Below, piece by piece: positions 18,186 to 22,960 of a DNA stretch of 33,850 nt; positions within the stretch are counted from its first letter, which is position 1, and each line of letters starts with the position of its first letter. The stretch is from a virus. The notes beneath the pieces are model-generated. The model ran no database searches, was not told where the DNA came from, and was given only the letters and a program-made list of their open reading frames with translations. A program made the position numbers and the translations under genes. Location: positions 1-33,850 of IMG/VR virus record IMGVR_UViG_3300027851_000650. The stretch is one strand, 5' to 3'.

Positions 18186-19064
18186 ATGACAGCTTTAGCA
18201 GCGGACAAGCGGCTCGAATACACCGAGGGCGTCGAGCTCGCCTTCCCCATCGATGACGGCGATGTCATCTACGGTGGCGCCTTCGTGTGCGTCAACGCGG
18301 GCGGGTTCGCCGTCCCCGGGTCGGATACGGCCGGCCTCATCTTCCAGGGCGTGTCCATCCACCACGTCGACAACTCCCTGGGCCAGGATGGCGACAAGCA
18401 GGTCGTCCTGCGCCGACGCGGCCTGATCAAGGCAACCCTCGGACACACCATCTCCCAGGCGAATGTCGGCGACAGCGTGTTCCTGGTCGACGACCAGACC
18501 GTGGACCTGGTCGCGAACGTGACCAACGCCATCTTCTGCGGCGTGATCGCGGGATTCATCGGCGCGAATCAGGCCTGGATCGACATCGAGCCGGCCGTAC
18601 GCCAGGCCGACGTGGCCACCCACATCGCAGACACCAGCGCCGCGCACGCCGCCTCGGCCATCAGCGTCGCCGACGCCGGAGCGTACACGGCCGAAGCCAC
18701 CGTCGAAGCCGCCCTGCAGGAACTCTACGGCAAGACTCCCTTGCCCGTGGCCGACCCCGGCAACGGCCAGGCACTGCCAGCGGCCAGATCCGCCGCCGTG
18801 TCTTTGACCACTGGCGCGACCGGACAAACCAGGACCCTGGCCGCCCCGGCCGCAGCCGGCCTGATGCTGACCCTGTGCCTGGGCGTCGACGGGGGCGGTG
18901 ATTGTGTCGTGACCGTGGCCTCGGCCATCAATCAGACCGGGAACAACACCATCACCCTGGGCGACGCCGGAGACACCGTCGTGCTCACGTCGGTGGTGAT
19001 CGGGGCGGCCAAGGCGTGGCGTCTGGTCGTCAATGACGGCTGCAGCCTGACCACGGTCGGTTAA
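18186..19064 (+). CDS. Capsid decoration-like protein (DUF2190-like)
   Basis: 292 aa, ATG 18186. N-terminal ~130 residues are Gly/Ala-rich beta sequence (GDVIYGGAFVCVNAGGFAVP) of the DUF2190 head-decoration kind. The C-terminal ~110 residues (LPAARSAAVSLTTGATGQTR, then DGGGDCVVTVASAINQTG) form a repetitive beta domain seen attached to decoration or head-fibre proteins. Located between scaffold and major capsid, the normal place for a decoration protein. Confidence 0.78.
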   Translation: MTALAADKRLEYTEGVELAFPIDDGDVIYGGAFVCVNAGGFAVPGSDTAGLIFQGVSIHHVDNSLGQDGDKQVVLRRRGLIKATLGHTISQANVGDSVFLVDDQTVDLVANVTNAIFCGVIAGFIGANQAWIDIEPAVRQADVATHIADTSAAHAASAISVADAGAYTAEATVEAALQELYGKTPLPVADPGNGQALPAARSAAVSLTTGATGQTRTLAAPAAAGLMLTLCLGVDGGGDCVVTVASAINQTGNNTITLGDAGDTVVLTSVVIGAAKAWRLVVNDGCSLTTVG

Positions 19065-19091
19065 CCATCAAGCATGGAGAGGAACCATACA

Positions 19092-20153
19092 ATGAGCAAA
19101 ATGATCAAGACCCTGTGCGTCTGGGCGGTGCTGGTCGCCGCCGTGCTGTTCGCGGTGCCCGTGTCCGGCATGGCTGCCGACGTTCGGACCATGGACCTGG
19201 CTGGCTTCGGCATCGGGATGGCCGGCCTGCTGGTCAACAAGGCGACGCTCGACGCGCTGTTCACCAGCCTGAAGACGACCTTCAACAACGCCTTCGCCGG
19301 AGCGCCCAGCCAGTGGGAACTGACGGCCATGAAGGTCCCGAGCGGGTCCGGCCGGAACGACTACGGGTGGCTGTCCGCCTTCCCCCGCATGAAAAAGTGG
19401 ATCGGAGACAAGGCCGTCAAGGCGTTGGAAGCCTTCAAGTACTCCATCGTCAACGATGACTTCGAGGCGACCGTCGAGGTGGACCGCAACGACATCGAGG
19501 ACGACAACCTTGGGATCTACGCCCCGCAGGCGCAGATGGCTGGCTTCAGCGCCAAGCAGCTCCCGGACGAGATCGTGGCCGACCTGAAGAACAACGCCTT
19601 CGTCAGCAAGTGCTACGACGACCAGTACTTCTACGACACGGACCACCCGGTGACCGATCCAGCCACCGGCGATGTCGCTTCGGTCAGCAACAAGTCGACC
19701 GTGGCTCTGTCCGGCGCGACCAACGCCGCGGCCGTCGCCAGCTACGGAGCAGCTCGGACCGCCATCATGAGCTTCAAGGACGAAGAAGGCCGGCCGCTTG
19801 GCTTGATCCCTGACGTCCTGGAAGTCCCGCCCGCCCTTGAGACCGAAGGCCGCCGCCTGCTGGAGATGGACAAGCTGGCCGACGACAAACCGAACCCCTT
19901 CAAAGGCACCGCCAAGCTGGTGGTCAACCCGCGCCTTACCTCGACCACTGCCTGGTTTCTGCACGTCACCTCGATGCCGGTGAAGCCCTTCGTCTACCAG
20001 GAGCGCAAGGCCCCGGTGTTCGTCGAGCAGACCGATCCCCAGGCGGACAACGTGTTCATGCGCAAGAAGTACCGCTTCGGCGCCGAAGCCCGCGCCGCCG
20101 GCGGCTATGCCTTCTGGCAGATGTCCTACGGCAGCACCGGCACCGGCGAGTAA
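19092..20153 (+). CDS. T: Major capsid protein (Mu gpT-like)
   Basis: 353 aa. The core matches Mu gpT: NNAFAGAPSQWELTAMKVPS, NDYGWLSAFPRMKKWIGDKA, EDDNLGIYAPQAQMAGFSAK, YDTDHPV and AGGYAFWQMSYGSTG. ATG 19092 is chosen over ATG 19074 because GAGAGGA precedes it. Unusually, the protein starts with about 30 residues that look like a Sec signal peptide: basic start (MSKMIK), hydrophobic core (LCVWAVLVAAVLFAVPV) and a small-residue cleavage-like site near A28/A29. Mu gpT starts near what is residue ~50 here, so the leader is an addition. Confidence 0.92.
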   Translation: MSKMIKTLCVWAVLVAAVLFAVPVSGMAADVRTMDLAGFGIGMAGLLVNKATLDALFTSLKTTFNNAFAGAPSQWELTAMKVPSGSGRNDYGWLSAFPRMKKWIGDKAVKALEAFKYSIVNDDFEATVEVDRNDIEDDNLGIYAPQAQMAGFSAKQLPDEIVADLKNNAFVSKCYDDQYFYDTDHPVTDPATGDVASVSNKSTVALSGATNAAAVASYGAARTAIMSFKDEEGRPLGLIPDVLEVPPALETEGRRLLEMDKLADDKPNPFKGTAKLVVNPRLTSTTAWFLHVTSMPVKPFVYQERKAPVFVEQTDPQADNVFMRKKYRFGAEARAAGGYAFWQMSYGSTGTGE

Positions 20154-20164
20154 CGGCAAACCCA

Positions 20165-20188
20165 GGGGCCGGGAATGATCCCGGCCCC
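20165..20188. repeat. Strong hairpin after the major capsid gene
   Basis: GGGGCCGGGA (20165-20174), ATGA loop, TCCCGGCCCC (20179-20188): a perfect 10-bp stem with a tetraloop and no T run. Twelve bases after the capsid stop, it could protect the abundant capsid mRNA 3' end or partly attenuate downstream transcription. Confidence 0.55.
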
Positions 20189-20208
20189 ATGAACACGGAG
20201 CAAGGAAC

Positions 20209-20520
20209 ATGATCATCATCACCGCGAAGAAAGACGGCTTCCGCCGCTGCGGGATGGCCCACAGCGCCAAGCCGGTCCAGCACAATGACGACGCATTCAG
20301 CCCGGAGCAGCTGAAGCAGCTGCAGGCCGAACCCATGCTTGTCGTGGAGCTGGTCGCCGACGAGCCCAAAGAGCCGGGCCAGATCGGCCCCCTCAAAGAG
20401 GACGTCGACGTGGATCCGGCCGTGGCGGAGGCCGAGAGCCAGTGTCCTGAAGAGCCCATGGCCGAACAACAGGCCGCACCGGCCGCGAAAAAGGGCGGCA
20501 AAAAGGCGTCCAAGGAATAG
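20209..20520 (+). CDS. Mu gp35-like head protein
   Basis: 103 aa, ATG 20209 after CAAGGAAC. The N-terminus (MIIITAKKDGFRRCGMAHSA, then FSPEQLKQLQAEPMLVVEL) matches the FluMu gp35 type small protein found directly after the gpT capsid gene in Mu-like phages; the C-terminus is acidic then Lys/Ala-rich and likely disordered. Function unknown. Confidence 0.82.
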   Translation: MIIITAKKDGFRRCGMAHSAKPVQHNDDAFSPEQLKQLQAEPMLVVELVADEPKEPGQIGPLKEDVDVDPAVAEAESQCPEEPMAEQQAAPAAKKGGKKASKE

Positions 20521-20523
20521 CCC

Positions 20524-20955
20524 ATGTACAGCACCGTCGCCGCCCTTCTGAAGCTGCTTCCGGAGTCCATCGTCCTGCAGCTCGCCGATGACGAGGAAGC
20601 GGGCTTGCTCTCGGATCCTGCGGTCACTGCCGTCCTGGAAGAGGCCATCGAGCAGGCCGACCGGGAGATCGACGCCTATGTCGGCACCGTCAAGCCTGTG
20701 CCCCTGGCGGTGGTGCCGGCGCTCATCGAGAACCTGTCCACCAAGTTGGCGGTTCACCAGCTCTGGTTGCGCCGACCAGGTGTGGACGAGCCGGAAACGT
20801 GGCAGCGGGAGACGGCCAGGTGCATGCGCCTGCTGGAAGCCATCGCCACCGGCAAGATGGCCCTGGGCGCGGAGATCGGCGGAGCTGCCGAGCCGAGCCA
20901 GGGCACGGCATCGTTCACGGCCAGCCAACGGCTCATGTCGCGGAGGACGCTGTGA
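20524..20955 (+). CDS. Mu gp36-like head-tail protein (DUF1320)
   Basis: 143 aa. DUF1320 features: an N-terminal LLKLLPESIVLQLADDEEAG, EEAIEQADREIDAYVGT, and a helical C-terminus with NLSTKLAVHQLWLRR. This family is the head-tail connector (adaptor-like) of Mu-like phages. Follows gp35-like and overlaps the gpG-like start. Confidence 0.88.
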   Translation: MYSTVAALLKLLPESIVLQLADDEEAGLLSDPAVTAVLEEAIEQADREIDAYVGTVKPVPLAVVPALIENLSTKLAVHQLWLRRPGVDEPETWQRETARCMRLLEAIATGKMALGAEIGGAAEPSQGTASFTASQRLMSRRTL

Positions 20956-21416: not shown

Positions 21417-21844
21417 GCAGGCAGACCGCTGAAGACGCGATCCTTGACCTGTTGCGCGACGGGCTCCCAGCCGCCGTGAAGGTCGGGTCCATGCCCCTGG
21501 GGCTGGATGAAGACGAAGTCTACGGGTTCCCGGGCGAGGCGGTTTGGGTGGTCTACGCCGCGGGCGCATCGAAGGAAAACACCATGATGGGCGCTCATGT
21601 GCAGCCCGAAACGTGGGCCTGGGCCGTGTATGCGCTGTCCAAGCGCTACCGCTCTTCCCAGGAGCGGAAGAAGGGAGCGCTTGCACTCCTGGAGCAGGTG
21701 GAGGGCATCCTTGCCGGGAAAATGGTCTTGGACGCCCCACTGGCAAAAGGTCGCGACCAGGTCGCGCCGGTCCCGCCCGGCAAGGGCGTGTTCGGTTACG
21801 AGATTATCTTCACCCTGGAACAAGAACTGCGGAGGATCCCATGA
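21413..21844 (+). CDS. Mu gp37-like tail terminator-type protein
   Basis: 143 aa, overlapping the previous stop by ATGA. The Mu gp37 family pattern is seen: a helical start (AEDAILDLLRDGLPAAVKVG), strands (VWVVYAAGASKENTMMGAHV, then WAWAVYALSKRY), and a C-terminal VFGYEIIFTLEQEL. By position between gpG-like and tail-tube genes it is likely the tail terminator or tail-completion protein (inference). Confidence 0.83.
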   Translation: MSRQTAEDAILDLLRDGLPAAVKVGSMPLGLDEDEVYGFPGEAVWVVYAAGASKENTMMGAHVQPETWAWAVYALSKRYRSSQERKKGALALLEQVEGILAGKMVLDAPLAKGRDQVAPVPPGKGVFGYEIIFTLEQELRRIP

Positions 21845-22005
21845 GTAACCCGTTACCCCAGTCCGGCGGCAGCTACTACGCCTTGAAGGATGGCACGCTG
21901 CAAAAAGCCGAACGGGCGCAGGCGCAGCAAGCCAATGTCGAGAAGACGCCGGCGCAGCCTGCCGAAAAACTGAACGAGAACAAGGAGGCCGGCAATGGCA
22001 AATAG
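21841..22005 (+). CDS. Small hydrophilic protein, unknown
   Basis: 54 aa, ATG 21841 overlapping the previous stop (ATGA) and ending 11 nt inside the tail-tube gene. Short N-terminus (MSNPLPQSGGSYYALKDGTL) and a Gln/Ala/Lys-rich disordered tail. It takes the place of Mu gp38, but no similarity to it is visible. Confidence 0.62.
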   Translation: MSNPLPQSGGSYYALKDGTLQKAERAQAQQANVEKTPAQPAEKLNENKEAGNGK

Positions 22006-22960
22006 ATATTTCCGCAACATGGTCATCCTGGCCAAAATTCAGGAAGACGTCGGTACGTACGAGGCCCCGGCCGCGGCCACGGACGCCTTGCTCATCAGCA
22101 ACGCGTCCATCGGCTATGACGACCAGGTCGTGGAGCGCGACTACCTGCGCGAGTTTTTCGGCTCGGCCGAGCAGCTCATCGGCGACAGCCCGGTCAATAT
22201 CGAGTTCGAGGTCGAGTTGGCCGGATCTGGTGCCGCCGGGACGGCGCCCGCCTGGGGCAAGCTGCTCCGGGCCTGCGCGTTCGCCGAAACGGTCTCTGCC
22301 GGCGCGCACGTGATCTACAACCCCATCACCACCGCCCAGGAGTCGCTGTCCATCCTCTACGCCGTGGACGGCGTCACGCACCGGGTCAAGGACGCCCGCG
22401 GCACGGCCACCCTGTCCATCGCCCCGGGCAGCAAGCCGTCCCTCAAGTTCAAGTTCATCGGCATCGAGCAGGCCGATCCCGAGGCCCTGGCCAACCCGTC
22501 CGGCGTGGTCATGACGGCCTGGAAGGCCCCGCTGCCTGTGGCTGCGGACAATACCGGGCACATCCTGATCGGCGGCACATACGCTGCCGGCGTGGTGACC
22601 GGCGGGACCGCATTGCCGTCCATCGGCGTGGATCTGGATCTGGGCGGGTCGGTTGAGTTCATGGCCCTCATGGGATCGTCCGAGGTCGACATCACCGGCC
22701 GCGAAATCAAGGGCACGGCCAAGATGCGCCTGGAAGCGGCCGCCGAGGTCACGATGTTCACCGACGCCAAGACCGTGACCACCAAGTCCGTGGCCTTCAA
22801 GCACGGCGTCGGCGCCGGGAAGATCGTGCAGTGCTACGCGCCGGCGTGCCAGTTCGGGCGCCCCAAGTACGAGAACGCCCAGGGCCGCCTGGCCGTGTCC
22901 GTGGACATGCGTCTGTGCCCCGTGGCCGGGAACGACGAACTGCTCATCATCGTGAAATAG
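21995..22960 (+). CDS. Tail tube protein (lambda-like siphovirus)
   Basis: 321 aa, strong AAGGAGG upstream at the end of the small preceding gene. Typical tail-tube opening (AILAKIQEDVGTYEAPAAAT is close to its residues ~10-29) and a long beta-rich body with a subdomain near 110-175. There is no contractile sheath gene before it, so the tail is non-contractile as in B3/D3112-type transposable phages. Forms the hexameric rings of the tail tube. Confidence 0.85.
   Translation: MANRYFRNMVILAKIQEDVGTYEAPAAATDALLISNASIGYDDQVVERDYLREFFGSAEQLIGDSPVNIEFEVELAGSGAAGTAPAWGKLLRACAFAETVSAGAHVIYNPITTAQESLSILYAVDGVTHRVKDARGTATLSIAPGSKPSLKFKFIGIEQADPEALANPSGVVMTAWKAPLPVAADNTGHILIGGTYAAGVVTGGTALPSIGVDLDLGGSVEFMALMGSSEVDITGREIKGTAKMRLEAAAEVTMFTDAKTVTTKSVAFKHGVGAGKIVQCYAPACQFGRPKYENAQGRLAVSVDMRLCPVAGNDELLIIVK

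Follow-up and report, generated by a model that had tools for sequence, protein, structure and literature searches.

The window, by which we mean the whole 33,850-nucleotide stretch of viral DNA analysed (IMG/VR record IMGVR_UViG_3300027851_000650), carries the capsid gene of a Mu-like phage at 19092-20153 on the plus strand. The product is a major capsid protein of family PF10124 with an HK97 fold; it matched the PF10124 profile with 303.5 bits against a curated cut-off of 20.1. An AlphaFold2 model built on 102 sequences (mean pLDDT 88.9) comprised a helix at residues 2-21, disorder at residues 22-49, and then the N-arm helix and the HK97 fold, and its best structural match was the JBD30 procapsid 8rkx (Z 15.6, 216 residues at 3.0 A, model residues 47-353). 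Upstream on the same strand lie a prohead protease-scaffold gene of the Mu gpI type (PF10123, 17123-18160, start provisional) and a gene for a decoration-type virion protein (phrog_1731, 18186-19064), which has no membrane segment in this phage. A 526-codon open frame on the minus strand (19068-20648) lies opposite the capsid gene and is most likely a by-product of high G+C content. Within the capsid core, two C-terminal gpT-profile segments (19734-20141) are swapped relative to Mu and JBD30, with profile positions 222-288 preceding 152-218. This order appears to be a permutation inside the HK97-fold family, and D3112-type proteins, which align end to end with that of the window, seem to share it.

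The capsid protein is longer at its N-terminus than its solved relatives. The Pfam gpT match begins only at residue 53, and the relatives of known structure (Mu, 9jod; JBD30, 8rkc and 8rkx) align from residue 47-48, so residues 1-45 form an extra leader. The original prediction had put this extension at about 30 residues; in leaderless relatives the starting Met aligns exactly with residue 46. The leader begins with a net-positive n-region, MSKMIKT (19092-19112), followed by a hydrophobic h-region of 17 residues (residues 8-24; 19113-19163), the basic start and the hydrophobic core being just as predicted. The c-region, SGMAA (19164-19178), contains candidate sites for signal peptidase I, after residue 26 and after residue 28. 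A site near residue 28 had been proposed and is plausible (GMA followed by A), but it is not unique, as SG followed by M after residue 26 and FA followed by V after residue 21 are candidates too. Next come a linker, DVRTMD (19179-19196), disordered in the model and containing one Arg, and a glycine-rich hydrophobic junction, LAGFGIGMAG (19197-19226), with the family pattern hydrophobic-[GA]-hydrophobic-[GA]-G. The gpT-type HK97-fold core (19227-20153) begins at the Met position of the leaderless relatives. All of these elements are on the plus strand.

Translation opens at the ATG at 19092 (MSKMIKTLCVWAVLVAAVLFAVPVSGMAADVRTMDLAGFGIGMAG-LLVNK...), and a Shine-Dalgarno-like GGAGAGG (19076-19082, plus strand) precedes it with a gap of 9 nt, in agreement with the ribosome site first proposed. 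The motif overlaps another ATG further upstream, at 19074, for which there is no ribosome site. A start near 19191 or later had been named as the result that would speak against the leader. The in-frame ATGs at 19191 and 19218 were rejected as starts, both for want of a usable ribosome site and because the codons upstream of them are under protein-level selection, and translation from 19092 was supported instead. Comparison with the 95% identical phage L004 showed, over codons 2-34, 29 identical codons, 3 synonymous changes and 1 replacement; over the whole leader pS was 0.26 and pN 0.02. In this pair, constraint on the leader equals that on the core. Pooled over 21 pairs of close relatives, dN/dS was 0.46 for leaders and 0.08 for cores. 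Judged by these substitution patterns, the leader is translated and under purifying selection.

Scans of viral and genome collections yielded 225 distinct capsid cores, of which 81 had a leader, 143 had none and one was cut off. The presence of a leader in 81 of 224 usable relatives makes it more than a chance feature; the corresponding share of 36% is not an estimate of prevalence, since three queries were used to find the relatives, most of which are metagenomic contigs. The two architectures were cleanly separated among distinct relatives. Leaderless genes have a strong ribosome site directly before M[LI]VN, and leader genes have theirs before the leader Met; only half of the leader members have Met at core position 0, and it lacks a ribosome site there. 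A hidden leader upstream of the leaderless genes was rejected, the upstream frame being short and not hydrophobic. All named phages inspected were leaderless, including D3112, JBD30, B23, Fc22 and, as originally stated, Mu. Hosts recorded for the leader form include Geomonas, Nitrosomonas, Nitrosovibrio, Herbaspirillum, Methylophaga, Gallionella and Nitrospiria. The Methylophaga thiooxydans DMS010 draft genome contains the same leader-bearing capsid gene about a dozen times (L132-L142, L156), with nearly every copy on a separate contig, as if the genome carried this transposable prophage in many copies.

The hydrophobic segment is conserved in character in close relatives, and poorly in sequence; its absence from them was the other outcome named as adverse to the leader. 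Among 68 non-redundant leaders, the n-region was net positive in all 68 and the h-region had a median KD value of 2.80. Lys and Arg made up 5 of 1395 linker residues as against 10.6% of core residues (P 1e-59), a depletion compatible with export and typical of the early mature part behind a Sec signal peptide, and the same linkers held 108 Asp or Glu residues. With the site picked by rule, Ala occupied -1 in 64 of 68 leaders and Ala or Val occupied -3 in 65 of 68. Real c-regions outscored shuffled ones in 53 of 68, a count to be read with the sites rule-picked and the window's own site ambiguous. In the ten residues before the core, G stood at -1 in 97% and G or A at -2 in 85%. By a simple signal-peptide score, the median was 13.6 for leaders and 13.9 for 20 E. 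coli signal peptides written from textbook knowledge; 35 non-secreted E. coli proteins scored -0.6 and shuffled leaders 5.2. The second hydrophobic segment is too weak for a normal transmembrane helix (crude dG +1.7). A 'sig_peptide' feature annotated on the gpT of a Salinibacter phage (L165) was rejected as an example; it spans the whole gene and looks spurious, as the protein has no hydrophobic N-terminus. In another Salinibacter phage (L208), a 'sig_peptide' feature covers the entire protease gene.

Leader and leaderless forms alternate on trees of the capsid core. Well-supported branches forced at least 9 changes on a mixture-model tree of 134 rows and at least 16 on a simpler tree of 224 rows. 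A single leader clade was rejected, with a log-likelihood 550 worse (p-AU 3.5e-5). As read from these trees, leaders have been gained or lost many times. The phages L157 and L268 share 91% identity in the leader and 77% in the core, and a leader can therefore be moved or replaced independently of its core; the pattern points to exchange at the 5' end of the capsid gene. Between the window and L305, leader identity is 60%, against the 33% usual for cores this far apart. The window's core is closest to those of leaderless phages and lies nearer to leaderless L006 than to L305 all along. Recombination with an L305-like core was rejected on the ground that only the leader resembles L305.

Most phages carry a leader on neither the capsid nor the decoration protein. 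In nine close relatives with a leaderless capsid protein, however, the decoration protein has an N-terminal membrane segment. Eight of the nine (L005, L006, L007, L011, L014, L016, L020, L028) share one design, namely MKRFIN..., a hydrophobic run, an acidic turn, a PLIYFG-like patch and the core, which is similar in its sequence grammar to the capsid leader. The ninth, L044, has a different membrane segment followed by basic residues, and L107, outside the window's clade, has a decoration protein with two full segments, so that the designs, all unlike, number at least three. The positive-inside rule predicts a cytoplasmic location for the decoration cores of L044 and L107. Mutual exclusion of capsid and decoration leaders was suggestive in the window's clade, where the sample is too small, and was not upheld as a rule, since L107 has both. 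No leader was found on a third head protein in the 3-kb flanks of sister phages with neither leader. Across 21 phage records, with crude gene calling, head-module order was the same, both tail types occurred, and no gene always travelled with the leader. In one leaderless phage (L192-L193, G018), two proteins of 569 and 158 aa with signal-peptide-like starts (oriented 19153-20862 and 21706-22182) sit between the early head genes and are probably inserted cargo.

Tailed-phage capsid assembly is usually pictured as cytoplasmic, driven by scaffold and portal. We tentatively favour, at somewhat less than even odds, the reading that the leader is a signal-peptide-type membrane-targeting segment, a cleavable hairpin like that of a procoat, which would hold the capsid protein at the inner membrane. 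Three roles had been offered originally, namely an inner-membrane anchor for prohead assembly, a segment removed by the phage protease, and an internal delta-like scaffold. Taken together these proposals are partly supported, and the putative anchor is the best supported of the three, given the signal-peptide anatomy, the linker almost free of Lys and Arg, and the decoration membrane segments in sister phages. Removal by the phage protease is possible, and cutting at the conserved [GA]-G junction would yield the same N-terminus as in leaderless relatives; the candidate AxA site would point to host signal peptidase I at least as well as to the phage protease. A delta-like scaffold is less likely.

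The nascent N-terminus would insert into the inner membrane as a hairpin, with the basic start inside, a short acidic loop outside, and then a weak second hydrophobic segment with the basic core side inside. The capsid core would stay cytoplasmic but concentrated on the cytoplasmic face of the membrane. Signal peptidase I may then cut the loop, perhaps accompanied by another cleavage at the [GA]-G junction, and loop cleavage would remove the strong anchor and release the subunit or prohead. In sister phages, similar contact with the membrane may come from the membrane segment of the decoration protein.

The layout resembles that of the M13 procoat (pVIII), a major coat protein with a cleavable signal peptide, a short acidic loop and a second hydrophobic segment. 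The likeness extends to the basic start, the hydrophobic run, the cleavage-type site, some 20 acidic residues without Lys or Arg, and a weak second hydrophobic patch with a basic residue on the core side. The M13 coat protein, in contrast, is small, sits in the membrane and is extruded through the envelope, whereas here a 308-residue HK97-fold domain belongs to a tailed phage, and the second segment of the capsid leader is short and weak. The closest known systems by homology are Mu gpT, JBD30 and D3112 (PF10124; PDB 9jod, 8rkc, 8rkx), which share the core and a similar head-gene neighbourhood but whose capsid proteins begin at the core. T4 and SPN3US build their proheads on the inner membrane, from which these detach after proteolysis (PMC9026906), and the head assembly proposed here would be alike in both respects; unlike T4, where portal and YidC provide the anchor, the anchor would here be on the shell protein. 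In the open-access full-text literature, our search turned up no account of a tailed-phage capsid protein with a signal-peptide leader; this does not prove that none exists.

The strongest rival, which we consider unlikely though a serious contender, is a delta-like propeptide, whose hydrophobic helices would cluster under the capsomers until the phage protease cut the [GA]-G junction after assembly. In HK97, residues N-terminal to the N-arm face the prohead interior, which argues against a closed shell tethered by its own N-termini and leaves room for the delta-like reading. By the AlphaFold2 model and the structure match, the leader sits N-terminal to the capsid N-arm, the position of the delta domain in HK97 gp5. 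The junction cut would restore exactly the leaderless N-terminus, and a prohead protease gene is present. Unlike the delta domain, however, the leader is 45 residues long and showed no folded helical scaffold domain in the AlphaFold2 model, only a single helix of 20 residues and a disordered linker, and the phage also encodes a protease-scaffold, whose gene is present with or without a capsid leader. Nor does a delta-like role account for the basic start, the AxA site or the linker poor in Lys and Arg, and an internal location would be unexpected for decoration proteins that bear membrane segments.

Three further readings are each improbable. Sec-dependent export of the capsid protein, in whole or in part, to the periplasm, for a role other than assembly such as translocon clogging or action on the envelope, would fit the textbook signal peptides of many members and their export-compatible early mature region. 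It would send the phage's only capsid protein gene product away from the DNA, however, and there is no conserved second start for a cytoplasmic form. No more promising, for all that signal peptides slow the folding of the mature part, is a leader that delays folding or recruits a chaperone and so prevents early assembly, with membrane contact incidental, as neither the charge bias of the linker nor the decoration anchors are predicted by it. Retention of the leader as a hydrophobic N-terminal virion arm, serving capsid stability or sticking to membranes or vesicles, is likewise doubtful: JBD30 N-terminal arms do extend over the neighbouring subunit (PMC11445458) and decoration proteins lie outside, but exposed signal-like helices should aggregate, and the AxA sites and acidic linker would be unexplained.

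To return to the membrane-hairpin reading, the leaders shared among these phages suggest that heads are built touching the host inner membrane rather than free in the cytoplasm. The leader is not essential in general, as 143 of 224 relatives lack it on the capsid protein and most of these lack a decoration leader too. Extending this reading to a large group of tailed phages, in which the HK97-fold capsid protein would be a cleavable membrane preprotein and proheads would assemble at the membrane through the shell or decoration protein and not the portal, is more speculative still, a conceivable outcome to which we give about one chance in three. Export signals on the shell protein would explain capsid proteins flagged as secreted by annotation pipelines, and their occurrence in many separate lineages, with related leaderless phages as natural controls, would allow a direct test of whether heads form at membranes and for what reason.
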